From Candidatus Gastranaerophilales bacterium (GTDB lineage Bacteria; Cyanobacteriota; Vampirovibrionia; Gastranaerophilales; Gastranaerophilaceae), in NCBI GenBank assembly GCA_944323475.1, contig CALUSQ010000001.1, positions 62,001 through 126,000 on the forward strand: a stretch of DNA of 64,000 nucleotides. The letters run 5' to 3'. The first letter of the stretch is position 1, and every line of letters starts with the position of its first letter. This document shows, piece after piece, positions 25,993-43,241 of this stretch. Made by a program: the position numbers and the translations under genes. The notes below the pieces were generated by a model. The model was not told where the DNA came from, searched no databases, and saw only the letters and a list, made by a program, of their open reading frames with translations.

Positions 25993-26047
25993 TTATTTAT
26001 AATAAAATCGAAAGTATATAATGATAACTGGAGATATTTTCAGGAAG

Positions 26048-26698: not shown

Positions 26699-27448
26699 AT
26701 GAACACTACCCAGATAAAAGATACACAAAATACTTTAAAAAAATCATTAGCAACTAATCCTATTTCTAGCAAAGCAGGACATGAAATATTATCTAAAGAA
26801 AAAATCAGAGAAATCATTGCCAAAAGAGCAGCAAAAGAATTTAAAAACGGAGATGTTGTAACACTTGGTATTGGATTACCAACAGCTGTTGCTGATTATG
26901 TTCCTGCTGATATAAATATAATTTTTCAATCAGAAAATGGTTTATTAGGGGTTGGAAAATCTCAACAAGGTGAAAAGAAAGACCCCAGAGTCATCAACGC
27001 AGGCGGAGGGCTTGTTGAAACAATCAAAGGTGCTTGTTTTTATGACTCTCAAATGGCATTCACAATGATGCGGGGCGGTCATATTGATGCAACAGTACTT
27101 GGTGCACTTCAAGTTGACGAAGAAGGTAGCCTTGCCAGCTGGATGATACCCGGAAAATTTGTTCCAGGTATGGGTGGTTCAATGGACCTTGTTGTCGGTG
27201 CTCAAAAAGTTATAATTGCAATGGAGCACACATCAAAAGGTCAAGTAAAAATAGTAAAAAAATGTAATCTTCCATTAACAGCATACAAAGAAGTTGATCT
27301 CATTATCACAGAAAGATGTGTTTTTGAAGTAACACATAAAGGTTTATTACTTATAGAAATAAATCCTATGTTTTCTCTAGAGGACATAAAATCATCTACT
27401 GATGCGGATTTTAAAATTGCTCAAAACTTAAAGCATATGGAAATATAG
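26699..27448 (+). CDS. 3-oxoacid CoA-transferase, subunit B
   Basis: Subunit B carries the catalytic Glu in SENGLLGVG, which forms the CoA thioester. GIGLPTAVADYVP and RGGHIDATVLGALQVDEEG are family signatures. It has an N-terminal extension of about 35 polar residues before the family start (KEKIREIIAKRAAKEF), so an internal start is possible, but no internal ATG with a ribosome site is seen. The ATG is immediately after the subunit A stop and both are clearly co-translated. Confidence 0.9.
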   Translation: MNTTQIKDTQNTLKKSLATNPISSKAGHEILSKEKIREIIAKRAAKEFKNGDVVTLGIGLPTAVADYVPADINIIFQSENGLLGVGKSQQGEKKDPRVINAGGGLVETIKGACFYDSQMAFTMMRGGHIDATVLGALQVDEEGSLASWMIPGKFVPGMGGSMDLVVGAQKVIIAMEHTSKGQVKIVKKCNLPLTAYKEVDLIITERCVFEVTHKGLLLIEINPMFSLEDIKSSTDADFKIAQNLKHMEI

Positions 27449-27490
27449 AAATAGCAAATTTTTTTATTTTCACATTTTAAAATTATTACT

Positions 27491-29311
27491 ATGATAATTT
27501 TAAATTCATTTTTAAACAACTATTTCAATAAAAATAAAACTGAAAATAACAACAAGATATCTTTTCAAGCAAATATAAACAAAATTTCAAAAGAAATTAT
27601 GTTGCAAAAATCCGAATACGAAAAGATATCAGAACTTGCTACTTTGCATCAAAATATATCAGACGCCTGCGCTTTATTAAGGAAAAAACTTAAAACAGCG
27701 ATAAAACAATCTTATCCTGGGCTTATTTCAAACAAAAAAAGAAAAGGTTTTATTTTTGACTCATTGTCTAAAGACAAAAGCACATTGATTCAAATGGTAA
27801 AATACAATATAGCAAAGGAAAAAGATGAACTTATTACGCTAAACATATTAGATAAAGCTTTAGAACCACTAATCAGTTTTAGATTTGATAAAGAAGGTAA
27901 AGTTTTAATAACTTCAGATGAAAATAGCATTAAGAATATAGCGAAACAGCCATTTGAAAATGTACTAAAAACATTATTCAAAAAATATTTTGAGCCATTA
28001 GTACAAGAAACTAAAATATTACAAGTATTTTGCGAAAATTTTAAAGCAATAAAAAAAACACATCCTGAAGCAAAAACAAAAAACAAACTAATAGAGGTAA
28101 CAAAAAATTTTTCATCTTTAGCAAGCAGTGTTGGTATAAAACCGGAAATAGAAGAAACTGTAAGAAATTTTAAATCATTACATGAACTTTTAAATCAAAA
28201 TATAAAAAAAGCTTATAACTTAAAACTATCTTACCTTGGAGCGGATGAAAGCATGAAAAATTTTCAAAGTTTCACCTTCAAAAATGTTGGCAAAAACGGA
28301 GAAACATACAGCTTTTGTCTAAACAAATCTAAAGACAAATCTAGAGCATTTAGAGTATTTGTTATAGACCAAAATAGCAAAATAAAACAAGCCTTTGTAT
28401 TTTTTAACGACGGAAGAATTGCAAAACTCAGAAATACAGCAAAAACCCCATACGATTTACGACCAAGCTATATTGAATTTATTTCTGACAGAGAAATAGA
28501 AAATTTTCAAATAAAGGAAATACTGAAAATACTTAACGAAAAATTTGCTGATTTTGAAAAATACATAAACACAAAAAGAGAAAATAAAATAGAAAGAAAA
28601 ATACTAACAGAACAAGAAAAACGTGAAAGAGCTAAAATAAGAGCTAAAATAAAAGCTGAAAAAATTGCCGAAGCAAAAGCAAAAATAAAAGAACAAAGAC
28701 AGCAAGAAAGATTACTAAACAAAAAACGTAGAGAACAAGAACTTTCAATGTTGAAAGAAAAACATAAAGCAGAAAAAACAGAAAGATTAAAAGAACCCAA
28801 AAAAGCAAAAGAAAAAGCAATAAAAGCTGAAGAAAAATTAAAAATAAAAGAAAAAGATATACAAGCTATAAAAATAAAAGCACAAAATGAATTTAAAAAT
28901 ATACCATTGTATAAACTTTCAGAAAAATTCAAAAAACTTTTTGATACCCCGATTGAAAAAAGAAGCTCTCATCTTATTTATCAAAAACTTGCTAACGGAG
29001 AATACTTTAATGCTAAATTCAGTTTAAAATCATCAGATGGTGCAATGATTACAGTTGCCAAAATAAAATCTCAAAAATACATGGACTTTTGTTACTATTC
29101 AATAACAGCAGAAAAAAATGGTGAAAAATTAGTTTTAAATTTTGACCCTTTTTCAAATAAAATTATAAAAAGTACAAAAGATGGAAAACCATTCATTGAT
29201 GATAAAAACAACTTGCATTTTATAAGTAAGGAAAAATTTTTAGCAAAAACACCTTATTCCGAAAATATTGGTTTATACATAAAAGAAATATTTGAATCAA
29301 AACCTTTATAA
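27491..29311 (+). CDS. Large lysine-rich protein of unknown function with N-terminal F-x-A motif
   Basis: I do not recognise this 606-residue protein. A polar leader ends in KISFQANINKISKE, similar to the F-x-G/A motifs seen in other unknown proteins of this window. A central part has globular wording (NFQSFTFKNVGKNGETYSF). A long charged coiled-coil follows (about residues 365-460, rich in KKREQE-like heptads), then a second globular domain (SSHLIYQKLANGEYFNAKF) whose wording echoes the central one. There is no signal peptide or membrane helix. No clear ribosome site precedes the ATG. The base composition is even more A-rich than its neighbours. Confidence 0.7.
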   Translation: MIILNSFLNNYFNKNKTENNNKISFQANINKISKEIMLQKSEYEKISELATLHQNISDACALLRKKLKTAIKQSYPGLISNKKRKGFIFDSLSKDKSTLIQMVKYNIAKEKDELITLNILDKALEPLISFRFDKEGKVLITSDENSIKNIAKQPFENVLKTLFKKYFEPLVQETKILQVFCENFKAIKKTHPEAKTKNKLIEVTKNFSSLASSVGIKPEIEETVRNFKSLHELLNQNIKKAYNLKLSYLGADESMKNFQSFTFKNVGKNGETYSFCLNKSKDKSRAFRVFVIDQNSKIKQAFVFFNDGRIAKLRNTAKTPYDLRPSYIEFISDREIENFQIKEILKILNEKFADFEKYINTKRENKIERKILTEQEKRERAKIRAKIKAEKIAEAKAKIKEQRQQERLLNKKRREQELSMLKEKHKAEKTERLKEPKKAKEKAIKAEEKLKIKEKDIQAIKIKAQNEFKNIPLYKLSEKFKKLFDTPIEKRSSHLIYQKLANGEYFNAKFSLKSSDGAMITVAKIKSQKYMDFCYYSITAEKNGEKLVLNFDPFSNKIIKSTKDGKPFIDDKNNLHFISKEKFLAKTPYSENIGLYIKEIFESKPL

Positions 29312-29334
29312 AATTATATTTGAAAAATTTAATA

Positions 29335-29413
29335 TTTATACAACTTTTTATACAAATTAATGTAAAATAGACTTACTAATTCTAAAAACAATTTGTTTTA
29401 TACTTTGTATAAA
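29335..29413. promoter_or_regulatory. Cluster of TTTATACAA sites upstream of the aldolase operon
   Basis: TTTATACAA occurs at 29335-29343 and 29347-29355 in direct orientation, and inverted (TTGTATAAA) at 29405-29413. The last copy forms a perfect inverted repeat, TTTTATAC-TTT-GTATAAAA (29396-29414), just before the ribosome site. This arrangement looks like an operator. Part of it may also act as -10 elements. Confidence 0.5.
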
Positions 29414-29434
29414 AATAAAAAGAAGGGATAATTC

Positions 29435-30232
29435 ATGAATCACCTGGAAAAACAAATGATTGAAAAGCTCATTGATTTAAAAAAAAATCATAATGTTCTT
29501 GGTGTTAAAGCTGAATTTGAATCAGAAGGTTCAACAATTGAAGAAGTTGTCAAACTTAAGGAATTAGCAACAAAAGCAGACCTTGATTTAACAATAAAAA
29601 TAGGTGGTTGTGAAGCGATAAAAGACATCTATGATGCAAAAAAAATAGGAATAGAAACATTGGTTGCTCCAATGATTGAATCACCATATGCAATGAAAAA
29701 ATATATTGAAGCAACCAAAAGAATATTTACAGAACAAGAAAGAAAAAAAAAGAAATTTTTAATTAATATTGAAACAATATATGGTTTTAATTACTTAAAA
29801 GATATTATGAATAGTCCATATTCAAATGATATTGCAGGAATTGTTTTTGGGAGAACGGATATGACAGGCTCGCTTGGGATGGATATAAATGATGTAAACA
29901 GCCCTGAAATACTTAAATATGCCCAAATCATTGGAGAAACTGCAATAAAATACAAAAAAGAATTTGTAATAGGTGGTGGAATTTCCACAGATTCTATAGC
30001 TTTTTTAAAAAATATACCTAAAAATTCATTAACAAAATTTGAAACAAGAAAAATAATTTTCGATGCACCAAAGGCACTTTGCGAACCTAATATAGAATCA
30101 GGTATACTAAAAGCTATCAAATTTGAACTATTATGGATAAAAAACAAACAAAATATTTATAACAAAATAACAAACGAAGATATAAAAAGAATAAATATTC
30201 TTGAAAAAAGATATAAATTCCAATCAATATAA
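29435..30232 (+). CDS. HpcH/HpaI aldolase / citrate lyase beta-like protein
   Basis: The 265 residues fit a PEP-mutase-type TIM barrel of the HpcH/HpaI-CitE family. VLGVKAEFESEGST opens the barrel, TIKIGGCEAI and VAPMIESPYAMKKY carry the metal/acid residues, and NIETIYGF and GRTDMTGSLGM match later motifs. Members cleave or form C-C bonds with pyruvate or acetyl units. The substrate here is unknown, and the position at the head of a lipid and envelope gene run hints at a surface-molecule precursor. The ribosome site AGAAGGGA is good. Confidence 0.78.
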   Translation: MNHLEKQMIEKLIDLKKNHNVLGVKAEFESEGSTIEEVVKLKELATKADLDLTIKIGGCEAIKDIYDAKKIGIETLVAPMIESPYAMKKYIEATKRIFTEQERKKKKFLINIETIYGFNYLKDIMNSPYSNDIAGIVFGRTDMTGSLGMDINDVNSPEILKYAQIIGETAIKYKKEFVIGGGISTDSIAFLKNIPKNSLTKFETRKIIFDAPKALCEPNIESGILKAIKFELLWIKNKQNIYNKITNEDIKRINILEKRYKFQSI

Positions 30233-30357
30233 ATAGAATTTTAACAGTTCTAAAAACTAGAAGTAGTAAACTAAAACTACATTCAATATATGATTACAAT
30301 AATCAGCATTTTTAGTATTTTATTAATAATTATTGGATAAAAAAGAATAGAGGGCAA

Positions 30358-31023
30358 ATGGACAGAAGAATAATCAAGCTTGGAATAGTTTTAGTTCTAG
30401 GTCTTGTTGTTATCATTCTACTAATAAATGTCTTAAAAAACATAAAAATTGATGAATTTCACCCTGCATCAGTAATTTTTGTAATTGATGCATCTGCATC
30501 TAACCAAGCAAAATTAGATGAACAAAAAAGCTATCTAAAACAATTGTGCAAAAGATTGGACCCAGAAGATAAAGTTAAAATAATAAGAGTTTCTGAAGAT
30601 GCTTATATGATTTATGAAGGTAATTCTCATAATTCAGCAGGTATTTCCAAATCGCTTGACAGTTTTACCCAATATAACAATAAAGAATATGGAACAGCAT
30701 ATGGAGATGGATTAAAAAAAGCATTATCTTTTGCTATTGATGCAAAAGGAAAATATATTCCAGCTATTGTTGTTATTGGAGACTTAGAGAACGAAGGTAG
30801 CCAAGAAAAGCAAATCGATTGGAACAATTTTCCAAATGAAATAAAAAAAGTCAAAGAACAAATTCCTGAATTAGCTATGATGTTTGTATTTGCACATCCA
30901 CAAAAATTAGATCTAGTAAAAACAAAATTAGGAAAAATATTTGGTGAAGAAAAACTTATATTATCCCCAGAAGAAAATGCTGACAAAGCAATTAAATCAT
31001 TTATATATGCATTAGGACGTTAA
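30358..31023 (+). CDS. Membrane-anchored von Willebrand factor A domain protein
   Basis: An N-terminal membrane helix (LGIVLVLGLVVIILLINVL) anchors a VWA domain. The metal-ion-dependent adhesion site looks complete: DASAS (Asp44, Ser46, Ser48), Thr113 in YGTAYGDG, and Asp142 in VVIGDLENEG. VWA domains bind partner proteins through a Mg ion, so this is probably an assembly or sensing partner in the envelope. It leads a tightly spaced set with an FHA-like membrane protein, a pairing often seen in multiprotein complexes. The partner is not known. Confidence 0.82.
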   Translation: MDRRIIKLGIVLVLGLVVIILLINVLKNIKIDEFHPASVIFVIDASASNQAKLDEQKSYLKQLCKRLDPEDKVKIIRVSEDAYMIYEGNSHNSAGISKSLDSFTQYNNKEYGTAYGDGLKKALSFAIDAKGKYIPAIVVIGDLENEGSQEKQIDWNNFPNEIKKVKEQIPELAMMFVFAHPQKLDLVKTKLGKIFGEEKLILSPEENADKAIKSFIYALGR

Positions 31024-31048
31024 AGAATAACAAAAGGAAGGTATTTTA

Positions 31049-32680
31049 ATGGCTCTTATTGTTGCAAGTAAAAATAATAAAAGAATATTTAATCAAGAAC
31101 AAATAACAATAGGTTCGGATTTATCATGCGATTATGTAATGAGTATTGGTGAAAAATTTTTAATAACACTGCATTATCGTGAAGAAGAAAAAAAATGTAT
31201 AATAATAAATAACACAGGAACCAAAAAATTTTTACACAAAAACACTTCTTTAGGTGAAAAAGCAGCAATTATAAATGCTGTAAAATTTTCTATTGAAGGA
31301 AGTGATGATTTTTTAATTATAAAAATTGATGACAGAATTATAAAAGATCCACAAAAAGAACCCAAAGCTCCAAAACCTGCACAAAATTTTTCAGATAAAG
31401 ATATAAATATAAACCAAAATAAAGTCGAAATTGAACCAGTTATTCAACCTGAAAAACTTGATCCTAAAGAAAAATTAGAATTGGAAAAAAGAAATATTGA
31501 AAAAGCAAGAACAGCAATAATAAAAGAAACTGGTTTTGCAATAAACGATTTAAAAAAGAGAATTTCAGTTAACAATAAAGGATTTGGTTTTGTTCATATT
31601 GCAATGTTTGTAAGTTCATTTATAAGCGCATTTGGACTTTCAAATTATTTAACAGGATTAAAGATAGAAGAAACAGCCAATTTTATCCAATTGCCAACAA
31701 ATATAAAAATTTTCTTTTTATTTGGCATAATAGTTTCAGCTCTTTGTTTAGTATTGAAACAAGGTGTATTTCTTTTCTATCAAAACAAAACACATTCTAC
31801 AAAACAAAATATCCATGCACAAAATAGTATGATTATGTTATCAAGTGTTTTCTTTGTTGCAATTTATATTATAAATCTTATCTACTATATTAATATAAAT
31901 CCTGTTTTTGCAATATTTATTTCATTATTCTTTGTTGCATTAAATATAGCTTTATCATGTGCTGCAGGCTATTTTAAATACTCAAGCCATGCAATGGCAT
32001 ATGTATTAGATCAATATGAATATAGAGAAGATTTTGAAGCTGTAATGAATAAATACAGAAACTGGATAGAAAAATTTATTAATAATATTAGTAATACTAA
32101 AATTAGCAATATAAAAAATAAATTATTTGACTTACAACTAAAGTCTGCAGGAGAAATGATTTTAGGCATTATAACATCACCCTTTTTGGCCTATGGTGTA
32201 TCAAATACTCTTGCACAATGTTTCCCTGATGCAGCAGGTTGGATAAGAATTTCAGGGTTAAGATTTAGTCCTGTATTTTTAATTTTAGCAACATTTTTAA
32301 TTATTTTTGCATTTTTGGCATTTACAATGGCTTTCACATGTATAAAAAAAATACAAGGATCAAATGTAATTAAACAAGATGGTTTTAGTAATTATTTAAC
32401 ACATGGTGTTGATATATTAGGTATTCAAGCTATAAGCAAACTTGAAGGCGATAAAACAAAAGCACTCATTATTGGATGTTCAATTATATTTATTGAGTTC
32501 ACAATGAACACATCCTATTTCTTTACAGAGATAGGCGGTGATTTGCAAGGCGTTCTATTAAGTGTAATTGCTGCATTAGTACCTACAGCATTATTAATCG
32601 CAGAAACTTTTATGTTAAGTAATACACGTTATGAAATACACGCAAGTGAATCTTTATTGTTACAACTTGATAGAGATTAA
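31049..32680 (+). CDS. FHA-like domain plus multi-pass membrane protein
   Basis: Residues 1-95 read like a degenerate forkhead-associated beta-sandwich (QITIGSDLSCDYVMS, where FHA usually has GR/GS..S.). A Pro/Lys linker follows, then at least eight membrane helices, in two groups separated by a soluble loop with DQYEYREDFEAVMNKYRNWIE. The key Arg of FHA phosphothreonine binding is not visible, so phosphopeptide binding is doubtful. The start has an AAGGAAGG site. I infer a membrane scaffold for the VWA protein encoded just upstream. Confidence 0.65.
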   Translation: MALIVASKNNKRIFNQEQITIGSDLSCDYVMSIGEKFLITLHYREEEKKCIIINNTGTKKFLHKNTSLGEKAAIINAVKFSIEGSDDFLIIKIDDRIIKDPQKEPKAPKPAQNFSDKDININQNKVEIEPVIQPEKLDPKEKLELEKRNIEKARTAIIKETGFAINDLKKRISVNNKGFGFVHIAMFVSSFISAFGLSNYLTGLKIEETANFIQLPTNIKIFFLFGIIVSALCLVLKQGVFLFYQNKTHSTKQNIHAQNSMIMLSSVFFVAIYIINLIYYININPVFAIFISLFFVALNIALSCAAGYFKYSSHAMAYVLDQYEYREDFEAVMNKYRNWIEKFINNISNTKISNIKNKLFDLQLKSAGEMILGIITSPFLAYGVSNTLAQCFPDAAGWIRISGLRFSPVFLILATFLIIFAFLAFTMAFTCIKKIQGSNVIKQDGFSNYLTHGVDILGIQAISKLEGDKTKALIIGCSIIFIEFTMNTSYFFTEIGGDLQGVLLSVIAALVPTALLIAETFMLSNTRYEIHASESLLLQLDRD

Positions 32681-32701
32681 AATTAAAAATTATAAAAAGA
32701 T

Positions 32702-33544
32702 ATGTCAAAAATACATTTAACAATAACAACCATTATTCTTGTTTTAACTACTATATTTATATGTATAAGTAGTCCTAAGTTACATAAAAAATTTGTAATT
32801 ACAGATTCTAATGTAAAAATTGTTGATGCGCCATTAAAATCAGAAGAAACAGTCCCAATCCAACCGGCAGAAGTGCCTATAGTAAGAGAAGTCTCTAATA
32901 AAGATTTACAAGCACTTAATGTCCCAGAAAAAACGAAAAAAAGTAATTCTCAAATAGTTAATACACAAAATATAAAAACAACATCACAAAAAGTGTCTGT
33001 TACTCCACAGACACAACAAAAAGTTACAACAACAAAGCAAAAAGCTGTACAAACACAAACCAAACCTAAAACGACACAATCAAAACCTTCAACGCAAACC
33101 AAACCTTCAACACAAACAAAATCAATAACAACAACTAAAAAAATACAAACTAAGCCTCAAACAACACAATCAAAATCTTCAACAACACAAACAGCTCAAA
33201 AAGCCAAAACTACTCAGCAAAAAATTGAAATTGATTGGGAAAAATGGCGTAACAATATTAATGCAAAAATTGTTGCCAATTCAACAGCACAAATAAAAAA
33301 GAGTGTACCTATCGGCACAAAATATGAATATAGTTTCAATGTAGATAATAAAAAGAAAATATCTGATATAAGAGTAGCAATTATTTCAAAAAATGAAACA
33401 AAAGAAGTCCAAAATGGTGTAAACATAATAATTTTAGCAATAATGAATTTAGAAAATAATTCTATTCTAACCTATCCAGAAGGTGCTGAAGGTATTACTT
33501 CAAGAAAAGTTGCTGCTTATATAACAATTAAGGAACAAAACTAA
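32702..33544 (+). CDS. TonB-like protein: membrane anchor, Thr/Gln/Lys/Pro linker, C-terminal domain
   Basis: An N-terminal helix (IHLTITTIILVLTTIFICI) is followed by a 110-residue low-complexity linker with near-tandem KPSTQT/TKPSTQ repeats and then a compact C-terminal domain (from IDWEKWRNNINAKI, with YEYSFNVDNKKKISDIRV and LTYPEGAEG). This is the architecture of TonB/TolA energy-coupling proteins, though I see no ExbB/ExbD partners. The C-terminal domain recurs in the next gene. The stop overlaps the next ATG (TAATG). Confidence 0.68.
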   Translation: MSKIHLTITTIILVLTTIFICISSPKLHKKFVITDSNVKIVDAPLKSEETVPIQPAEVPIVREVSNKDLQALNVPEKTKKSNSQIVNTQNIKTTSQKVSVTPQTQQKVTTTKQKAVQTQTKPKTTQSKPSTQTKPSTQTKSITTTKKIQTKPQTTQSKSSTTQTAQKAKTTQQKIEIDWEKWRNNINAKIVANSTAQIKKSVPIGTKYEYSFNVDNKKKISDIRVAIISKNETKEVQNGVNIIILAIMNLENNSILTYPEGAEGITSRKVAAYITIKEQN

Positions 33545-34224
33545 TGAAAAGAATTATAATAATAGCTTTAATACTTAATTTTATATTTCCTCTTACTGTG
33601 TGTTGTGAAGAAAACTTTAAAATACCGGAATACACTATCGAAATTCCAGCTGTTTTTCAAAATTTGGAAGACAACATAGAAGAAAGTTGGCTTGATATAG
33701 AATGGAATACATGGCATGCAAATGCAAGAAATCCATTACTAAAATTTATTAATGATTTAAAATTTAAAGATTTTTATCTTGGATTTACTTTTTATGTAAA
33801 TAAAAATAGACAAATTACAGATATTGTCGTTTATTTTTTACCAGGCAACTCATTTAATAAGTGGTTTGCATATATGAAAAAAGACGGTGTTTATTATGCA
33901 TATGTATATAGTACTAACGAATTTTACAAGTTCAAAACAGATAAAAAAATACCCGTTAACAATGGCTTCTTTATATACAAACAAGATATAATAGAAAAAA
34001 TGACAATTACCAAAACTAAAAAAGAATATGTACCAGAATGTGATAAAATAATATCTTTTGCAAAAGATATAAATAGTCTAAGCGGTATTGATTATTTAAA
34101 ATATCCAAAAGGTTCAAAACGCTATAAAGTTAGAGTAGAAGGCGGTTGGCAAGATTTAATACATAGTGGCAAAAAATATTATTCATCTTCAGATTTTGAT
34201 GATACAGAAAGGATAAAAAATTAA
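33544..34224 (+). CDS. Exported protein sharing the TonB-C-like domain of its neighbour
   Basis: It has a signal peptide (IIIIALILNFIFPLTVCC; a lipobox is not clear). The mature part repeats the wording of the previous gene's C-terminal domain: IEWNTWHANARNP against IDWEKWRNNINA, FYVNKNRQITDIVV against FNVDNKKKISDIRV, and LKYPKGSKR against LTYPEGAEG. It is therefore a linker-less paralogue located in the envelope. It is coupled to both neighbours by one-base overlaps. Confidence 0.7.
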   Translation: MKRIIIIALILNFIFPLTVCCEENFKIPEYTIEIPAVFQNLEDNIEESWLDIEWNTWHANARNPLLKFINDLKFKDFYLGFTFYVNKNRQITDIVVYFLPGNSFNKWFAYMKKDGVYYAYVYSTNEFYKFKTDKKIPVNNGFFIYKQDIIEKMTITKTKKEYVPECDKIISFAKDINSLSGIDYLKYPKGSKRYKVRVEGGWQDLIHSGKKYYSSSDFDDTERIKN

Positions 34225-34625
34225 TGCTAAAGCTAAAATATGCTAAATTATTTACATATTTACTTTTAACAATATTTATATTTACACCGCAAACAACATT
34301 TGCAGCAAAACAAATAATACGCGGCGATGATGGAGCATTTTATGTGATTGACACAGAAGATCCGAATGATACTGATTTTGCTGATAGCGTAAACGGCGAA
34401 GAAATCATAAATCAAGAAAATGATAATGTTCCAATACCACAAAAAAATATACAACAAAACAATGAAGAATCTTTGACTCAACAAGATATAGAAGATGCAG
34501 AAGATTATCAAAAATATGAAAATGCAGCTAAAAAAAATAAAATAACAGGATTTTTAGGTGCAACATTAGGTACTTTAGTAGTAGCAGGAGCACTAATTTG
34601 GATAATAATAGCTGGCATTGATTAG
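34224..34625 (+). CDS. Small exported protein with C-terminal membrane helix
   Basis: The 133-residue product has a signal peptide (LFTYLLLTIFIFTPQTTFAA), an acidic Asn/Gln-rich middle and a C-terminal membrane helix (TLGTLVVAGALIWIIIAG). The family is not recognised. Its start shares one base with the previous stop and its end lies seven bases before the fusion gene's ATG, so it belongs to the same operon and probably to the same envelope complex. Confidence 0.65.
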   Translation: MLKLKYAKLFTYLLLTIFIFTPQTTFAAKQIIRGDDGAFYVIDTEDPNDTDFADSVNGEEIINQENDNVPIPQKNIQQNNEESLTQQDIEDAEDYQKYENAAKKNKITGFLGATLGTLVVAGALIWIIIAGID

Positions 34626-34632
34626 AGGTATT

Positions 34633-37600
34633 ATGAATATTTTAAAAGAACTATGGAATAAAAATTTTATAAGCTTATTTTTAGGTCAATTAGCAACACA
34701 TTTTAGTGATGCAATAATCCAAATTGTATTGATAGCATCAATATTGAATAACACAGACAAACCAGGTGGACTAATTGCATTAATGTTATTCTGTTTTATA
34801 TTTCCATCATTGATTATAAGTATGATAGCAGGTAGCATTGTAGACCGTTTTTCCAGAAAAAAAGTTATGATTTATAGTGCCTTGTACAGAGGTATAGTTC
34901 TTTTATTTGCATTTGGAATATTTATTATACTCCACGACAAAGTAGAAACTATTCTTATGATAAAAACTTATGGTATTGTACTAAGTATTTTAATTGGATG
35001 CGGCACAGCATTCTTTTACCCAGCAAAAATGGCAGCAGTACCTAATGTAGTTAGCATTCAAGCATTAAAACCCGCCAACGCACTAATTTCCGGATCTGGG
35101 ACTTGGGCATTAACTTTTGGCGCATTGATTGCAAGTTTCATATTATTAAAAGTCGGAAATTTCAATACATTTTTAATATCAATAACAATTTATTTTATAG
35201 CAAGCGTTATTCTTTTAGCAGTAAATTTAAAAAATGATGAATATACTAATAATAAATATTTTAACCTACAAGATGATATAAAAGATACCTTTTCATTTTT
35301 AATGAAACACAAAAAAGCATTAAATATGATATTGTTGGCAGTCATTATTTCTTTAATATCTGCAACTTTTTATAATGCAATGAATGCAATTGCAACCGAT
35401 TTTTATCAGGTAAGTGTTCAAGGACTTGCTCAATTGAAATGTATGCTTGGATGCGGAACTTGCTATGGCGCAATTATAATGATTCTTTTTGGCAAAAGAC
35501 TCAAAACAAATAAAACTCTTGTAACGTCATTTTTAGGGTTATTCTTGTGCTTAATAACAGCATCACTATGTACAACATTTATGAAAGCAAGAATATGGTT
35601 GGGTGCAATCGGATTATTTGCAACTATATTAAAAGTAACTATAGACACTATTTTGCAAAAAGTTTCACCAAACTTTATAAGAGGTAAAGTATTTGCATTT
35701 GCATCAATGCTAGAAACACTTGCTTCATTAGTAGGTATAGGGTTTGTTGCCCTATTTACGGGCATAATCCATCCAATAACAATTTTTCATTCAATAGCAA
35801 TTTTATCGGCATTTATGGCACTCACTTTGTTGCTGCTAAACAAAGTTTTCAGATATTTTGTTCTTAGAATTACAGTTGGACAACTTTTTAAAATATTTTT
35901 TAATTATCAATTTGAAGGTATAGATAACATTCCTAAAAAAGGTAAAGTTATACTTGCAGGAAATCACACTGGACAATTGGATCCTCTTATTTTGCAAATG
36001 GCAACAGGAAGAAATTTATGGTTTATTACTGGACCTGCCGCATTTAAAGTACCAATAATAAGACATATATTAAAATGGTTTAATGTGTTACCTTTAAAAT
36101 TTGGAGCAGGTCTTGAAGCAATTGAAACAGGCGTAGTAAAACTTAAGCACGGGGAAGCTGTAATAATTTTTCCAGAAGGTAAGTTTACAACCGATGGAGA
36201 TTTATGCAGATTTCATAAAGGTGTTGCCATTATGGCGAAAGAAGCAAATTGTCCAATAGTACCATTTGCTATAAAAGGCGGATTTGAAGCTTGGGGAAAA
36301 ATTAGAAAAAATCCCAAACTATTTACAAAAATTATTATTCAATTTGGACAACCTATAAGAGATTTATCAGGAACAGAAAAAGATATTTCAAAAGAACTTG
36401 AACAAAGAGTAAGATTTATGAAAACGTCTCTTGAAAGAAGAGCATTTTATAAAATTAAAGATACAGAATACACTAATTTTTTAGATATTATGAAACAGTA
36501 TAGTGATACCTATGGTCAAACCAAAGCTGTTTCAATAAAAACAAAAAATGGATATGAAGAAATAAGCTATATAGATTTAAAAAGAAGAGCTAAAAAATTT
36601 GCAAACTACCTCATGGAAAATGCAGATGTCCAAAGAAACGACAGAATAGCAATTTTATGTGAATCAAGACCAGAATTTGCAGTTGGAATATTTGCATCAA
36701 TTCAAACAGGGGCAATTACTGTTCCTCTAGATGTTAAATTAACAGTACCAGAGCATACTCATATCCTTTCTGACTGCAACCCCAAAATTTTGTTGTGTTC
36801 GAGTCATTATTTGAAACATGCAATTGAACTCAAAAACAATGTTAAATCAATACAAGAAATATTTGTACTCGATGATGAACAAAGAGAACATCCGGAATTC
36901 TTATCTATTTCAAAATTAGATGCTGACATAGAAAAAAGTTTTAAAAGAGCACGTTCTATGGATGAAACAGCTCTTATTGTTTACACATCAGGAACAACAG
37001 GAAATCCCAAAGGTGTAATGATAAGTTTTGGAAATATTTACTCACAAATGAAAGATTTTGAAAAAGTTTTAAAACTATCAAAAGATAATACATTATTATC
37101 AATACTTCCATTAAACCACCTTTTGGAACTCAATGTTGGATTTTTTGGAATGCTCTTTATGGGTGCAAAAATAGTCTATATCAAAACACTAAACCCTAAA
37201 GAACTAACTTCAGCTATGAAAGAAAAACAAATTACCAATATGATAGTTGTGCCTCTAGTAGCAAAGATGCTTAAAAATAGTATCGATAAACAAATAAAAA
37301 AACAACCACAATACAAACAAAAAATCTTTGGATTAATGTTTAATATAGCAAAATATATGCCAATGAAAATCAGAAGATTAATGTTCAAATCGATAATAGA
37401 TGGTTTTGGCGGTAAATTTGAATGTTTTATATCTGGTGGCGCACCATTAGAATCAGATATTGCAGAATTTTTTGAAAGAATTGGTATTCCTGCATTTGAA
37501 GGCTATGGTCTAACTGAAACAAGCCCTGTAATTTCGACAAATCATTATAAAGCACATAAAATTGGTACAGTTGGAACTCCTTTACCGTCAGTAAAAGTTA

Positions 37601-38139
37601 AGCTTTCTGATCAAGGAGAAATTTTAGTTTATGGACCAAATGTAATGCAAGGATATTATAACAAACCAGATATGACAGCTGAAGTTATAGATGAAAATGG
37701 CTGGTTCCATACAGGTGATATAGGGGAAATTGATAAAAATGGTTTCATAAAAATTACTGGAAGAATTAAAAATATGATTGTTTTAGGTGGAGGTAAAAAG
37801 ATTTTTCCAGAAGAAGTTGAAGCTGTTTTAGAACAATCTGAATTTATAAAAGAGCTTTGTGTTCTTTCACTGAAAATAAAAGCAGGAAATAAAGCAGGTA
37901 CAGAAGAAGTTGGTGTAATCATTGTACCTTCTGATTCACTTGTAGAAAAAAGTGATGAAGAAATACAAAAAACACTAGAAGCTGAAGTCAAAAAGCTTTC
38001 AGAAGCAAATCTCGCACCATACAAAATGCCAACTGTCGTAATATTTAGACGAGAAGATTTACCTAAAACATCAACACAAAAAGTAAAAAGAAAAGATTTG
38101 CTTCAATGGTATGAAAATATGCAAGCACATAAAGTTTAA
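34633..38139 (+). CDS. LplT-PlsC-Aas type triple fusion: lysophospholipid transporter, acyltransferase and acyl-ACP synthetase
   Basis: This 1168-residue protein joins three activities. Residues 1-405 are an MFS transporter (NKNFISLFLGQ, GSIVDRFSRKK). Residues 425-610 are a PlsC acyltransferase with NHTGQLDP (HX4D, near 445) and FPEGKFT near 513. Residues 640-1168 are an AMP-forming acyl ligase with YTSGTTGNPKG near 784, YGLTETSP and a C-terminal catalytic-type Lys in STQKVKRKD. E. coli encodes LplT and Aas separately for lysophospholipid salvage; here all are one chain. It starts at the ATG at 34633 with an AGAGGT site. Substrate specificity is inferred only. Confidence 0.92.
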   Translation: MNILKELWNKNFISLFLGQLATHFSDAIIQIVLIASILNNTDKPGGLIALMLFCFIFPSLIISMIAGSIVDRFSRKKVMIYSALYRGIVLLFAFGIFIILHDKVETILMIKTYGIVLSILIGCGTAFFYPAKMAAVPNVVSIQALKPANALISGSGTWALTFGALIASFILLKVGNFNTFLISITIYFIASVILLAVNLKNDEYTNNKYFNLQDDIKDTFSFLMKHKKALNMILLAVIISLISATFYNAMNAIATDFYQVSVQGLAQLKCMLGCGTCYGAIIMILFGKRLKTNKTLVTSFLGLFLCLITASLCTTFMKARIWLGAIGLFATILKVTIDTILQKVSPNFIRGKVFAFASMLETLASLVGIGFVALFTGIIHPITIFHSIAILSAFMALTLLLLNKVFRYFVLRITVGQLFKIFFNYQFEGIDNIPKKGKVILAGNHTGQLDPLILQMATGRNLWFITGPAAFKVPIIRHILKWFNVLPLKFGAGLEAIETGVVKLKHGEAVIIFPEGKFTTDGDLCRFHKGVAIMAKEANCPIVPFAIKGGFEAWGKIRKNPKLFTKIIIQFGQPIRDLSGTEKDISKELEQRVRFMKTSLERRAFYKIKDTEYTNFLDIMKQYSDTYGQTKAVSIKTKNGYEEISYIDLKRRAKKFANYLMENADVQRNDRIAILCESRPEFAVGIFASIQTGAITVPLDVKLTVPEHTHILSDCNPKILLCSSHYLKHAIELKNNVKSIQEIFVLDDEQREHPEFLSISKLDADIEKSFKRARSMDETALIVYTSGTTGNPKGVMISFGNIYSQMKDFEKVLKLSKDNTLLSILPLNHLLELNVGFFGMLFMGAKIVYIKTLNPKELTSAMKEKQITNMIVVPLVAKMLKNSIDKQIKKQPQYKQKIFGLMFNIAKYMPMKIRRLMFKSIIDGFGGKFECFISGGAPLESDIAEFFERIGIPAFEGYGLTETSPVISTNHYKAHKIGTVGTPLPSVKVKLSDQGEILVYGPNVMQGYYNKPDMTAEVIDENGWFHTGDIGEIDKNGFIKITGRIKNMIVLGGGKKIFPEEVEAVLEQSEFIKELCVLSLKIKAGNKAGTEEVGVIIVPSDSLVEKSDEEIQKTLEAEVKKLSEANLAPYKMPTVVIFRREDLPKTSTQKVKRKDLLQWYENMQAHKV

Positions 38140-38157
38140 TGAAAAAGGGACTAAAAA

Positions 38158-38420
38158 ATGATAAAATATTTAATCTTTATTTTTACAATAGTCTCACTTA
38201 CTACAGGTACTTGCTTTGCACAAAATATTGCAAATAAGCAAGCAGATTATAAAACATTAAATTTGAACAAAACAACAGAGAACTTCATCATAAGAGTCCA
38301 AAAAGATTTTAAATACGTATTCTAAAAAAATATAGTTATAATCAAATAGTTGAAAAAGATATGAAAAAGTTATACATTGAATTCCAATACAAGTACTTTG
38401 ATCAAAAAATAAAGTTTTAA
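38158..38420 (+). pseudogene. Small exported protein, apparently frameshifted
   Basis: An ATG at 38158 opens a 55-residue frame with a signal peptide (FIFTIVSLTTGTCFA) ending at TAA 38323-38325. Beyond the stop a shifted frame continues without interruption (LKKYSYNQIVEKDMKKLYIE, then FQYKYFDQKIKF) to a TAA at 38418. The shift lies near the A/T-rich bases around 38308-38330. Either the gene is a short 55-residue exported protein, or it once encoded about 88 residues and lost frame. It lies in the lipid operon between the fusion and cdsA-like genes and is otherwise unrecognised. Confidence 0.45.
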
Positions 38421-38452
38421 TAGATAGCACATAACAAAAACGGAGAAAAAAA

Positions 38453-39412
38453 ATGGAACACTTTATATTTACACCAAATGTAAAAATTGCTATTTTTATT
38501 TTGTATTCTTTTATATTTATACTTATGACAATAATAAAAGTTATACAAATAACAACAAAAAAAGATTTAGATAATATTTGGATAAGAATGAAATCTTTTC
38601 TGCTTATTTGTGTATTTTTTACAGCAGCATTTTGCTTTAATAAAATAGTTGCATTTATATTTTTGACACTAATAAGCTATTTATGTTTAAAAGAATTTTT
38701 GTCTCTCATTCCAATAAGGAAAACTGATAGAAATGTATTGTTATGGGCATATTGGTCGATACCTATTACATTTTATATTGTTTATATACAATGGTTAACA
38801 CTTTTTTATTTATTTATACCTTTGTACATGTTTATTCTTATATCTGTAAGAATGGTTTTGGCTAGCAATACAGATGGCTTTTTGAAAAACCTTGCAGTTT
38901 TACAATATGGTTTAATGACAACAGTATATGCATTAGGTTATCTTGGTTTACTTGCAATAATTCCTTTACAATATAATCCTAAAGGTGGTGCAATAGGTCT
39001 GTTATTTTACATTCTTGTATTGACTGTATCAAATGATTTTATGCAAATGTTTTGTGGTAAAGCTTTTGGAAAACACAAAATTATTCCTAAAGTAAGTCCA
39101 AATAAGACATGGGAAGGTTTTATAGGTGGAATAATAGGAACAACTATTTTATCAGTTATAATGGCACATTACTTAACACCATTTACATTAAGTCAATCAA
39201 TATTCGCAGGTGCTGTACTAGCAATGTTTGGTTTCTTTGGAGACGTCACAATGTCAGCAATAAAAAGAGATTTAGGCGTAAAAGATACAAGTTCTCTTAT
39301 TCCTGGACATGGAGGTATTCTTGACAGATTAGACAGCTTGTTGTTTACTGCACCATTATTCTTCCATTATTTTGCATTTCTTAATACAATAGTAATATCT
39401 AGAGGTAATTAA
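38453..39412 (+). CDS. Phosphatidate cytidylyltransferase (CdsA/YnbB-like)
   Basis: The enzyme makes CDP-diacylglycerol from phosphatidate and CTP. Multiple membrane helices are followed by the full CDS signature: SPNKTWEGFIGG, then SAIKRDLGVKD and SLIPGHGGILDRLD with the catalytic Asp residues. The 319 residues match the YnbB-type length. A CGGAGA ribosome site precedes the start. Its company (PlsC, methyltransferase, CDP-alcohol phosphatidyltransferase) suggests a dedicated CDP-diacylglycerol pool and not the housekeeping CdsA, which I cannot see here. Confidence 0.92.
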   Translation: MEHFIFTPNVKIAIFILYSFIFILMTIIKVIQITTKKDLDNIWIRMKSFLLICVFFTAAFCFNKIVAFIFLTLISYLCLKEFLSLIPIRKTDRNVLLWAYWSIPITFYIVYIQWLTLFYLFIPLYMFILISVRMVLASNTDGFLKNLAVLQYGLMTTVYALGYLGLLAIIPLQYNPKGGAIGLLFYILVLTVSNDFMQMFCGKAFGKHKIIPKVSPNKTWEGFIGGIIGTTILSVIMAHYLTPFTLSQSIFAGAVLAMFGFFGDVTMSAIKRDLGVKDTSSLIPGHGGILDRLDSLLFTAPLFFHYFAFLNTIVISRGN

Positions 39413-39414
39413 TT

Positions 39415-40071
39415 ATGATATACAATTTTTTAAAATATATATTGTTTTGTTTTATAATCAAACCTTTCATATACTTGATTTTTGGAGTTAATGTGTCAGG
39501 CATAGACAATCTTCCTAAAATCGCAAAAGGTGCATCAATAATAGTCGCAAATCATAATAGTCATATTGATACATTGCTTTTAATGAGTTTGTTTTCAAGT
39601 TTTCAAACCATAAAAATTCACCCAGTTGCAGCAGCTGATTATTTTTGTAATACAAAATTAAAAGAATTTATTTTTACAAAAATACTTGGAATAATTCCTA
39701 TCTCAAGAAAAGTAAAAAAAGCATCAAAAGAAGAAATTTTTAAAGATATAAACGAAAAATTAAGAGCAGGAGAGACTATCATTATTTATCCTGAAGGAAC
39801 AAGAGGTGAAACAAGTGAGCTTACAAAATTTAAAACAGGAGTAGCTCATATTGCTAAAATGAATCCTCAAATTCCAGTTATACCTTGTTATATCAATGGT
39901 CCTGACAGGATTTTACCTAAAGGTACATTTTTATGGGTACCTTTTATAGCTGATGTGTATATTTCAGAACCTATATATTATGATAATACATCTACAAAAG
40001 ATTTTACGGAAAAAATTCAATATGCAGTTGAAGCATTAAAAGAAGAACACAAAAAAAGAGAGGAATTATAA
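39415..40071 (+). CDS. 1-acyl-sn-glycerol-3-phosphate acyltransferase (PlsC family)
   Basis: This membrane-associated acyltransferase of 218 residues has an N-terminal hydrophobic helix. It carries the HX4D motif in ANHNSHIDT near residue 45, the substrate motif IYPEGTRGE near residue 123 and the C-terminal VIPCYINGPD. It would form phosphatidate for the adjacent CdsA-like enzyme. It is a second PlsC next to the fusion protein's PlsC domain, and the two share only core motifs. It starts two bases after the preceding stop and is surely co-translated. Confidence 0.9.
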   Translation: MIYNFLKYILFCFIIKPFIYLIFGVNVSGIDNLPKIAKGASIIVANHNSHIDTLLLMSLFSSFQTIKIHPVAAADYFCNTKLKEFIFTKILGIIPISRKVKKASKEEIFKDINEKLRAGETIIIYPEGTRGETSELTKFKTGVAHIAKMNPQIPVIPCYINGPDRILPKGTFLWVPFIADVYISEPIYYDNTSTKDFTEKIQYAVEALKEEHKKREEL

Positions 40072-40072
40072 A

Positions 40073-40927
40073 ATGTATAGCAAATTATTGTACAGATTTT
40101 TAGCAGAGACCTTTGGACCACAAAGCAAAGGCTATCAATTATGTGAAAAATACGGTATAAATTCTGCAGAAGTTATGGATTATGTATATAAAAATGAACC
40201 TCAAGGCAATGGTTTTACTAAATTAATCGACTCCATATTCTTAAATTATCCTACTTGGAAATCAATAAGAGAAAGAAAATCAAATTTGGAAGAAATATTA
40301 AAAAATTTTATAGTAAAAATAGCAAAAGAGAATAAACAAATAGAAATATTGGATTTAGCTTCAGGTTATGGACAATACATTTTTTCTGTTCTTGAAGATT
40401 TAAAAAATATTAAACATCTTGTTAACATAGAAATGAGAGATAAAGACAATTCCTGTAAAATAGCAATTGAAACAAAAGCCAAAATTAATAAAATCAATGC
40501 AAGTTTTGTTCAAGCAGATATTCTTGACAAAAAAGCATATGACCAAAATAAAAAATATGACATAATAATTTTATCAGGTTTCTATGACTCATTGCGTAAC
40601 GATATACAAGTTATTCCAGATACTATGTATATTGTTAACAATTTACTTAAAGATAATGGTATTTTTATTTTCACAAATCAAGTAACACATCAAGATTTAG
40701 CCCTTGTTAATAAATTGTTTAATGACACAGAGCAATGTCCTGTTGATATGATTGAAAGAGAAAATGAAATTATGGAATATTTTGCAAAAAGATCAAATTT
40801 TAAAACACTTGCCGTCAAAATTGATTCTCAAAACAGATATAGCGTAATATCAGTACAAAAACTAAATAAAAATAATATTGAAAATACCGAAAATAAGCCG
40901 TATGAAACTTTAGTCGAAAAAAAATAA
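40073..40927 (+). CDS. Class I SAM-dependent methyltransferase (YnbC C-terminal-like)
   Basis: The Rossmann-type SAM motif is EILDLASGYGQYIF near residue 94, followed by an acidic residue after the second strand (NIEMRDK) and KYDIIILSGFYDSL near residue 160. The first 80 residues are helical and not diagnostic. YnbC of E. coli carries such a methyltransferase next to an alpha/beta hydrolase; the hydrolase half is missing here. I infer that it methylates the lipid head group or its precursor. It starts one base after the PlsC stop. Confidence 0.75.
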   Translation: MYSKLLYRFLAETFGPQSKGYQLCEKYGINSAEVMDYVYKNEPQGNGFTKLIDSIFLNYPTWKSIRERKSNLEEILKNFIVKIAKENKQIEILDLASGYGQYIFSVLEDLKNIKHLVNIEMRDKDNSCKIAIETKAKINKINASFVQADILDKKAYDQNKKYDIIILSGFYDSLRNDIQVIPDTMYIVNNLLKDNGIFIFTNQVTHQDLALVNKLFNDTEQCPVDMIERENEIMEYFAKRSNFKTLAVKIDSQNRYSVISVQKLNKNNIENTENKPYETLVEKK

Positions 40928-40974
40928 AATAACAACAAAATCTAAAAAATATAAAACTCAGAAAGGATATATAT

Positions 40975-41637
40975 ATGAACTCACCAAGAAGAGAAATCAA
41001 AACAAGAGATACAAAGTGGGCACAAAGTTTAGCAAAATTTGTTGCAACAAAAACAGATATTACACCCAATACAATATCTGTTATGAGTATTTTTTGTAGT
41101 TTTATCGCATTTTTAGGCTATTGTTGTTATGCATTACCGCAATATCCTGAAAAATTCTATTTTATTCTTCCAATCGTAATAATTATAGGAATACAAAGCC
41201 GATTAATTTGTAACCTAATCGATGGAATGGTTGCAATAGAAGGTGGTAAACATTCTATAATTGGTGGTATATACAATGAATTTCCAGATAGAATTTCAGA
41301 CACATTTATTATTGTTGGTGCAGGTATTGCTGGTTTGAGCACATATTCTTTAATATTGGGGCTGGTTGCTGCTTTACTCGCTATTTTGACAGCATACACA
41401 AGACTATTGGGTGGTACTATTGGTGCAGATCAATATTTTATAGGACCAATGGCAAAACAACACAGAATGGCACTTTTGACATTTGCAGCTATTATCTGTT
41501 TCTTTCAACCTTTTTGCAATAATATAAATACAATTCTTTATCCAGCTGTTTTAGCTGTAATTTCATTAGGCTGTATCATAACTGTTTGGAGAAGGCTTGA
41601 ACATATAAAAAAAGAACTTGAAACTGCTAATGAATAA
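40975..41637 (+). CDS. CDP-alcohol phosphatidyltransferase (YnbA-like)
   Basis: The enzyme swaps CMP from CDP-diacylglycerol for an alcohol head group. The metal-binding motif appears as LIDGMVAIEGG with downstream YNEFPDRISD; the canonical Arg after Ala is Ile and the spacing of the second Asp pair is shifted by an NEFPD block, as in the non-PgsA/PssA branch of the family. Several membrane helices follow. The head-group alcohol is not known. A good AAAGGAT site precedes the start. This gene ends the lipid operon. Confidence 0.85.
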   Translation: MNSPRREIKTRDTKWAQSLAKFVATKTDITPNTISVMSIFCSFIAFLGYCCYALPQYPEKFYFILPIVIIIGIQSRLICNLIDGMVAIEGGKHSIIGGIYNEFPDRISDTFIIVGAGIAGLSTYSLILGLVAALLAILTAYTRLLGGTIGADQYFIGPMAKQHRMALLTFAAIICFFQPFCNNINTILYPAVLAVISLGCIITVWRRLEHIKKELETANE

Positions 41638-41679
41638 AAACATTATTTTAGAATAGAAATAAATAAAATTATTAATTAA

Positions 41680-42336
41680 ATGATTAATAAAAAATTTAAA
41701 TATAAATTCACCTTTAACAATGTAAAGGAAAACGCTAAAATATTTGTTTCCTTAAGTATAATTGTAATAGTAATATTTACTATTATATTATTCAATTTAC
41801 CTATAAATGAAAAAATAACTTGTAATTCAAATTATAAATGCATAGTTGAAAAAACATATTATTTGAACAGAAAAAGATACAAAACTTTTTATATAACATC
41901 TCAAAGTTCAATAATAATGAAAAAAGTACTAAGAAAGATTTTACTTAATAAAAAATCGTTTATTAGAGGATATAGATACTATGCAATAATAGAAACAGAA
42001 TCAGATTCTATAAACCTTTTTTATTTCCCTATATGCCCTATTGCTAAGATATATGATAATGATTCTTTTGAAAAAGCTTGTAATCCTTATGCAAACTATG
42101 TTATTCAAAATTTCAGTAACTATAAAGAAAATATAAACAATACGGATTTTACATTAACAAGCCTTGCAAACAGTAATTATTATAGAAATGATATAATTTT
42201 TTTAATTGTAATTTTCTTATTTATTTTTTTATGGTGTTATTTAACAGAAATAGGTTTTTGGGAGAATTTACATACTTTGCACAAGAAATATAAAAATTTC
42301 CAAAAAAGACAAAAAAGAAAAAACAAAATAAATTAA
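41680..42336 (+). CDS. Two-helix membrane protein of unknown function
   Basis: The 218-residue protein has one membrane helix near residues 20-42 and another near 170-190, with a cysteine-containing loop between them (CNSNYKCIVEKTY, FPICPIAKI) and a lysine-rich tail. The family is not recognised. No ribosome site is visible. Its stop overlaps the convergent LysR stop (42333-42336). It may extend the lipid operon, from which it is separated by 42 bases. Confidence 0.6.
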   Translation: MINKKFKYKFTFNNVKENAKIFVSLSIIVIVIFTIILFNLPINEKITCNSNYKCIVEKTYYLNRKRYKTFYITSQSSIIMKKVLRKILLNKKSFIRGYRYYAIIETESDSINLFYFPICPIAKIYDNDSFEKACNPYANYVIQNFSNYKENINNTDFTLTSLANSNYYRNDIIFLIVIFLFIFLWCYLTEIGFWENLHTLHKKYKNFQKRQKRKNKIN

Positions 42337-43241
42337 ATATTTTTAAACTTTTGGCATAACTCATCTAAAAAAAGCTTTGCAGGCTTTGAAAACAACTGAT
42401 TCTTTTTCCAAGCAATATTAACTTCAACTTCCAATTTTGGTTTCAAAGGCCTAAAACAAAGAGAACTATCAACTGTATCTTTTATTAACCTGTCTAAACC
42501 TAATGTATAGCCAATTTTGTTTTCAGTCATTATTGCAGCATTGTAAATAAGATTGTAAGTGCCTGCAATATTAAGATTATCAAAATCTTTACCAAACCAC
42601 TTTAAAATAGGATTATTTTCAAATGTTTTTTTTATAGCTTGTCTGGAAATCAAAATAGGTAAATCTCTTAAATCATTTATATTGATACATCGTTTTTCAG
42701 CAAGAGGATCATCTTTTCTTAACAAAATCCCCCAAACATCTTTTTCTCCTAAATTTATGTAATCATATTTTTGAGGATATTTTTCAACATCAAAAGGTTG
42801 AATGAATATACAAAAGTCCAATAAGCCTTTGTCCAGTTTTTCTGATAAATCTTCACTATCACCAGATACAATATGAAATTTAATTTTAGGATAATCTTTT
42901 TTCAAAGAAAACATAATATCAGATATCAATCTTATGGATTTTGTTTCTCCCGCACCAATATATATATCTCCGGATATTTCATCTTTTATAACAGAAAATT
43001 CATGCTCCGTTTTCTCAACCAAATCAATAATTTCTTGTGCACGTTTTCTCAAGACCATACCTTCTGCCGTCAGAGAAACACTATGATTGCCTCTAACAAA
43101 CAATTTTTGCCCTAATTCTTTTTCTAAATCCTGCAACTGTCTTGACAAAGTTGGCTGTGTAAGATGCATAGAATTTGCTGCTTTAGTAATATTACCAATC
43201 TCAGCAACAGTTAAAAAATATTTTAAAACTCTAATTTCCAT
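42333..43241 (-). CDS. LysR-family transcriptional regulator
   Basis: The N-terminal winged helix-turn-helix is clear (LKYFLTVAEIGNITKAA and LTQPTLSRQLQDLEKELG). A periplasmic-binding-protein-like effector domain follows to residue 302. LysR regulators usually control the divergent neighbour: here the acetyltransferase and CMD/cupin genes starting at 43361, across a 119-base gap. The effector is unknown. Its end overlaps the convergent membrane-protein gene by four bases. Confidence 0.92.
   Translation of the reverse strand: MEIRVLKYFLTVAEIGNITKAANSMHLTQPTLSRQLQDLEKELGQKLFVRGNHSVSLTAEGMVLRKRAQEIIDLVEKTEHEFSVIKDEISGDIYIGAGETKSIRLISDIMFSLKKDYPKIKFHIVSGDSEDLSEKLDKGLLDFCIFIQPFDVEKYPQKYDYINLGEKDVWGILLRKDDPLAEKRCININDLRDLPILISRQAIKKTFENNPILKWFGKDFDNLNIAGTYNLIYNAAIMTENKIGYTLGLDRLIKDTVDSSLCFRPLKPKLEVEVNIAWKKNQLFSKPAKLFLDELCQKFKNI

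Follow-up and report, generated by a model that had tools for sequence, protein, structure and literature searches.

Do the genes of a putative envelope complex and those of an accessory phospholipid pathway, which lie in one co-oriented run in the genome of a Candidatus Gastranaerophilales bacterium, make up one system or two? The run is part of a stretch of 64,000 nucleotides (contig CALUSQ010000001.1, positions 62,001 to 126,000 of the forward strand), here called the window, to which positions refer unless another locus is named. An earlier note made from its sequence alone had read the genes as a single operon in which VWA and FHA proteins act in the placement or sensing of a specific phospholipid. 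We compared the run with sampled genomes, 146 for the order Gastranaerophilales and 23 for the genus, and read it as two independent modules standing head to tail: an envelope module (module A, 30358-34224, possibly to 34625) and a lipid module (module B, 34633-41637), the latter a Ynb-type accessory pathway. We give this reading a probability of about 0.72, a figure that mainly covers the separability of the modules and the assignment of module B. Among the genus genomes the FHA-like protein of module A is present in 19 of 23 and the full-length LplT-PlsC-Aas fusion of module B in 10 of 23, and the two adjoin only in the source genome, a draft of 45 contigs with 94% completeness that is probably metagenome-assembled.

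The gene run and the distribution of its modules

All genes named in the earlier note were found where it had placed them, on the + strand and in one co-oriented run:

29435-30232, +, HpcH/HpaI-type aldolase (PF03328, 31.4 bits, cut-off 25)
30358-31023, +, membrane-anchored VWA protein, predicted periplasmic (PF13519, 37.6 bits)
31049-32680, +, FHA-like protein with an N-terminal FHA fold (residues 1-95) and a multi-helix membrane domain (AlphaFold2 model)
32702-33544, +, first exported protein, with a transmembrane helix, a disordered linker and a C-terminus like TolA domain III (model and VIA structure comparison)
33544-34224, +, second exported TolA/TonB-like protein (phmmer)
34224-34625, +, small exported protein with a C-terminal hydrophobic helix (open reading frame)
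34633-38139 (open reading frame from 34618), +, fusion of LplT (MFS), PlsC and Aas (acyl-ACP/CoA ligase) (PF07690, PF01553, PF00501)
38158-38336, +, remnant of a gene for a WG-repeat exported protein (tblastn, 55.8 and 43.1 bits)
38453-39412, +, YnbB-type cytidine diphosphate (CDP)-diacylglycerol synthase, CdsA-like (PF01148, 211.5 bits)
39415-40071, +, PlsC-type lysophospholipid acyltransferase (PF01553, 88.7 bits)
40073-40927, +, methyltransferase of 284 amino acids, Methyltransf_20 (PF12147, 120.7 bits)
40975-41637, +, YnbA-type CDP-alcohol phosphatidyltransferase (homology to YnbA, motif NLIDGMVA...GGIYNEFPD)

Because the two modules distribute differently and adjoin only in the source genome, the proposed coupling between them is a single-genome juxtaposition, and a conserved operon of all ten genes is rejected at both genus and order level. 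In one relative (G100) the FHA-like gene and the fusion lie 4.4 kb apart and are divergent. We found no Ynb-type cassette beside the FHA-like gene in any of 80 named loci, nearly all of them in assemblies named Candidatus Gastranaerophilales or in gut assemblies with loose labels, and no module A genes beside the lipid cassettes of relatives. Isolated ynbB matches near the FHA-like gene at L141 and L168 have no adjoining cassette partner, and at L104 and L124 relatives of the second exported protein stand behind VWA and FHA genes without lipid genes. The synteny check in gut relatives that the earlier note had proposed therefore confines the coupling to the source strain, although the lipid set itself is not strain-limited, and its idea that the VWA and FHA proteins serve the lipid pathway finds no support in the comparison.

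From aldolase to transferase the spacings are, 5' to 3', 125, 25, 21, -1, -1, 7, 313, 2, 1 and 47 nucleotides, so that the overlaps or short gaps said to link the whole run hold at 8 of 10 junctions and fail between aldolase and VWA (125 nucleotides) and between fusion and CdsA-like gene (313 nucleotides). The latter gap holds the 5' part of the WG-repeat gene (55.8 bits, where none of 30 shuffles exceeds 22.7), and an intact WG-repeat gene stands between fusion and cdsA in three relatives (L031, L089, L090). The fusion most likely starts at the ATG at 34633, after a GAGGT site. Since tblastn found no homolog of the aldolase in related lipid-cassette loci, this gene probably belongs to neither module. 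The co-oriented run extends from 26021 to 42336, past both ends given in the earlier note, and is closed by a gene for a LysR-type regulator (42333-43241, -). Upstream of that gene, on its own strand, is a perfect sigma-70 consensus (promoter-like site 43278-43249). Scans for promoters and terminators are uninformative at this AT content.

The lipid module and its transferase

The likeness to ynbABC that the earlier note had pointed out is borne out, as homologs of YnbA, YnbB and the YnbC methyltransferase lie in one cluster. The CdsA-like protein matches YnbB of Escherichia coli MG1655 with 40% identity over 274 amino acids (E 2e-65), the methyltransferase matches the C-terminal half of YnbC (27%, E 2.5e-31) and the transferase matches YnbA (26%, E 1e-11). 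A housekeeping role of the lipid genes, which would have undone the proposal of a specific pathway, is ruled out because the genome carries its own CdsA (G000:C2:116331-117134), of which the window's copy is the second, and a canonical PgsA-like transferase on contig C15; the lipid enzymes are thus not the housekeeping PssA, PgsA or CdsA. Most of the 146 genomes have one PF01148 match and 23 have two. E. coli YnbB is non-essential and even when overproduced does not rescue a cdsA knockout (PMC6362211), which by analogy would fit a dedicated, low-flux pool of CDP-diacylglycerol.

Module B is accessory. A close ortholog of its transferase occurs in 4 of the 146 genomes, and a relative of any kind in 15. 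Within the genus the core is usually made up of fusion, cds and plsC, with the fusion usually adjoining, and plsC adjoins cds in the cassettes examined across the order. What lies downstream of the core varies within the genus and may be a transferase of the window type, one of a second type, one like YnbA, or the methyltransferase. Transferase, CDP-diacylglycerol synthase, PlsC and methyltransferase also occur as four adjacent genes on a plasmid of Pseudanabaena sp. ABRG5-3 (L206, NZ_AP017564.1) and in three further cyanobacterial genomes (L211-L213). Related sets are found in Fusobacterium vincentii (hydrolase-methyltransferase, transferase and CdsA-like protein), in Roseateles (with an additional PAP2/dual-specificity phosphatase) and on an E. 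coli plasmid (including PlsC). The Pseudanabaena cassette adjoins a nif gene cluster, and the F. vincentii record (L205, NZ_CP084075.1) is labelled a plasmid of 2.1 Mb, is almost without annotation and looks like a mislabelled chromosome.

The canonical motif of PF01066 is D-x2-D-G-x2-A-R-x8-G-x3-D-x3-D, whose four aspartates are numbered D1 to D4. In the window transferase, NLIDGMVAIEGGKHSIIGGIYNEFPD, D1 and D3 are Asn and the R is Ile. The same two Asn residues, with D2 and D4 retained, are present in all 24 readable cassette-type transferases, which come from Gastranaerophilales, cyanobacteria, Fusobacterium, Roseateles and E. coli and which, having been gathered by homology with a pattern that set no residue at D1 and accepted either Asp or Asn at D3, are no statistical sample. 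None of the 24 departs from the motif at D2, D4, the A or either G, and the PgsA-like protein of the source genome has Asp at both D1 and D3. This N/N signature of cassette transferases across phyla is a new observation of the present work. In characterised CDP-alcohol phosphotransferases two metals are bound by D1-D4, of which D4 is presumed to act as the base (PMC6506517). The window transferase has no PF01066 match at E<1, yet E. coli YnbA, with the same Asn changes, does match this family; a PDB search with the window transferase returned nothing significant. Two distant homologs in one genus (L032:1931-2566 and L033:9760-10401) have lost the DG..A motif entirely.

For every N/N transferase scanned the nearest curated model is archaetidylinositol-phosphate synthase, which the window enzyme matches with 66 bits against a cut-off of 180. 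An Arg stands directly after D4 in window-type transferases, in contrast to E. coli YnbA, and enzymes that use inositol phosphate have an Arg right after D4 (PMC6506517). However, inositol-1-phosphate synthase (PF01658) is absent from all 146 genomes, making endogenously made inositol phosphate an unlikely acceptor; another phosphorylated or polar alcohol is probably used. In three loci (L025:9223-10311, L026:9761-10849, L034:8697-9809) the N/N transferase is C-terminally fused to a flavodoxin-like domain. In three others (L021, L022, L023) two different N/N transferases flank cds-plsC, and such pairs could act sequentially or as a heterodimer.

From the homology, the motifs and the cross-phylum cassette, all of which are results of the tools used, we infer a set of reactions and a lipid product, whose exact chemistry we offer as tentative and think more apt to be revised than kept. 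PlsC would make phosphatidate, from which the YnbB-type enzyme would supply a dedicated pool of CDP-diacylglycerol; the YnbA-type transferase, with its two Asp to Asn changes in the metal site, would then transfer the phosphatidyl group to an acceptor that is polar and possibly phosphorylated, and the PF12147 enzyme would methylate either this product or a precursor of it. That the product is methylated is plausible, given that the methyltransferase belongs to PF12147. The LplT-PlsC-Aas fusion may take lysolipid back up and re-acylate it. Our literature search on PF12147, on ynbA as a CDP-alcohol phosphatidyltransferase and on the gene combination returned nothing about function, nor did the literature searched contain lipid data for these organisms. 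As the product of ynbABC in E. coli is not known, the definition of a cross-phylum cassette together with a diagnostic active-site change makes the question of this product testable.

The envelope module

Module A keeps its gene order in at least 75 of the 80 named loci. Beside the FHA-like gene stand a VWA gene in 75 of them, a gene for a transmembrane-anchored TolA/TonB-like protein in 76, one for a zinc-ribbon TolA/TonB-like protein in 59 and one for an exported glycine-zipper protein in 50. Across the order the FHA-like protein occurs in 101 of 146 genomes.

The VWA protein has a complete metal ion-dependent adhesion site (D44-x-S46-x-S48, T113 and D142) that is invariant in 12 aligned sequences. 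The FHA and TonB-C-like domains proposed in the earlier note lie below detection by Pfam and NCBIfam, and a sequence search of the PDB with an FHA profile found no relative; structure comparison supports both. For the FHA-like protein (AlphaFold2 model, mean predicted local distance difference test, pLDDT, of 81.6) the best VIA match of residues 1-95 is 6ccd, FHA-1 of Rv1747, with Z 11.8 and a root-mean-square deviation of 2.3 over 92 residues, and the matches listed for this part are FHA-domain chains, which upholds the FHA-like label. Phospho-recognition by this protein is nevertheless unlikely, judging from the alignment, because the position of the phosphothreonine-binding Arg is Arg in none of 50 homologs, the residue after the conserved Gly being Ser, Thr, Ala or Asn.

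The first of the exported proteins called TonB-C-like does have a C-terminal fold of the TolA/TonB kind, but TolA domain III is the nearer relative. In its model (C-terminal pLDDT about 93) the top six VIA matches are all TolA, with Z 8.0-9.5, and TonB chains follow only after them, for which reason its modelled C-terminus is better read as TolA-like; the best match, 1lr0, has Z 9.5 over 113 residues at 3.5 Å. The second exported protein has phmmer matches in L104 (7e-22), in L124 (5e-18) and in the conserved family beside the FHA-like gene, which by sequence makes it a divergent paralog of the first protein's family. The small exported protein matched only itself in a phmmer search of the related loci. 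A part in anti-phage defence was rejected, PADLOC being blank for the VWA, the FHA-like and the first TolA-like protein. PADLOC does match the second exported protein to Cmr5 (6e-6), but export of this protein and its kinship with the TolA-like family make the match look spurious.

Given the folds and the modularity that the tools returned, module A would be an inner-membrane/periplasm complex of a Gastranaerophilales type. Its putative parts are a VWA protein in the periplasm whose metal site is intact, periplasm-spanning proteins that end in a TolA-like domain, and a polytopic membrane subunit whose cytoplasmic FHA fold lacks the phosphothreonine-binding residues. We infer that such a complex may serve as a trans-envelope scaffold or force coupler of the Tol/TonB kind. 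At one locus (L088:6342-7922, on the same contig as L105) a short pair of ZorA-like (MotA/TolQ) and ZorB-like (MotB) genes lies directly upstream of VWA-FHA, a hint that module A can be powered. A gene like Mu-type transposase A and an AAA partner lie upstream of VWA-FHA at L104:364-4014, the locus of the closest FHA protein. In five genomes of one genus (G033, G054, G057, G113, G143; e.g. L084:8798-9097) the N-terminal FHA part is a separate gene of about 100 amino acids without membrane domain, which looks as if the module had decayed or been split. The VWA-FHA-TolA module is undescribed, common to a large share of gut Gastranaerophilales and strongly conserved in gene order, and it offers cell-biological work on an uncultured lineage a concrete target.

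Competing readings and known systems

Some observations weigh against two independent modules with a Ynb-type pathway as the second. The junction between the modules is very tight, 7 nucleotides with a ribosome site, and this leaves room for a coupling in the source strain, where co-expression and recent functional recruitment may have occurred. The cassette members are without known product and the order of the reactions is a guess; the curated models nearest to the transferase use inositol phosphate, yet the synthase for it is absent from the order; and Asn at D1 and D3 could signify lost transferase activity. A single functional operon, in which the VWA, FHA and TolA-like proteins place or sense the lipid from the ynb-like genes, would account for the one co-oriented run, for the 7 nucleotides between the modules and for the envelope action predicted for both, but we consider it improbable, as the modules are joined in no other genome examined and each is widely found without the other. 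It is also quite improbable that the junction is an assembly artefact. Such an error might be suspected in a draft of this contig number and completeness when the adjacency is seen once; however, no gene is truncated at the junction, where the gap is on the scale of an overlap and a ribosome site is present, and base composition (~27-31% guanine plus cytosine) does not change sharply there.

Two further readings concern module B alone. The N/N transferase might no longer be a phosphatidyltransferase and might act, for example, as a hydrolase, a regulator or a heterodimer partner, as the role of D1 and D3 in coordinating metals in characterised enzymes (PMC6506517) and the two different N/N transferases of L021-L023 could suggest. 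The retention of D2, D4, the A and both G residues throughout the 24 sequences argues against this, as do the usual company of a CDP-diacylglycerol synthase gene and the ability of Asn still to ligate metal, and we regard a changed role as unlikely, if worth keeping in mind. For overproduced E. coli YnbB a glycolipid precursor of the GlcNAc-PP-diacylglycerol type has been proposed; that the cassette yields such a precursor in place of a methylated phospholipid seems very improbable: MPIase is increased on YnbB overproduction in E. coli, but its level is not significantly changed in a ynbB knockout (PMC6362211), and the proposal leaves YnbA and the methyltransferase unexplained. A wider proposal, which we advance as doubtful, is that YnbA-type enzymes form a distinct branch of the CDP-alcohol phosphatidyltransferases, catalytically altered by Asn at D1 and D3, which, with a dedicated set of YnbB, PlsC and PF12147 enzymes, would make an undescribed methylated phospholipid across cyanobacteria, Gastranaerophilales, Fusobacteria and Proteobacteria, and which here would be controlled by the Gastranaerophilales-specific VWA-FHA-TolA complex.

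Among known systems, module A resembles the Tol-Pal and TonB systems in the TolA domain III-like C-termini on transmembrane-anchored proteins with linkers. It differs from them in generally lacking TolQ/ExbB or TolR/ExbD (no genome-wide TolQ search was run) and in having VWA and FHA subunits instead. In module B, the fusion has the three domains of the LplT-PlsC-Aas fusions NF006386 and NF005291 in the same order on one chain, but with 358 bits against a cut-off of 1221 it is a different equivalog. Archaetidylinositol-phosphate and phosphatidylinositol-phosphate synthases are the best curated match of the N/N transferases scanned, over nearly their full length, and share the window enzyme's Arg after D4, whereas the N/N transferases score 59-84 bits against 180, have Asn at D1 and D3 and occur in an order without inositol-1-phosphate synthase. 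The ynbABC(D) genes of E. coli K-12 are alike in the clustering of YnbA, YnbB and YnbC-methyltransferase homologs and in the N/N motif, but K-12 lacks PlsC and its gene order differs. The window run has neither the alpha/beta-hydrolase half of YnbC nor the YnbD phosphatase; as the cyanobacterial cassettes also lack the hydrolase half and a YnbD-type phosphatase, these are optional parts. The cassettes of Pseudanabaena (L206) and the three other cyanobacteria (L211-L213) differ from the window in gene order, in a transferase motif closer to that of E. coli YnbA and, at L206, in having no adjoining fusion, but they encode the same four proteins in adjacent genes.

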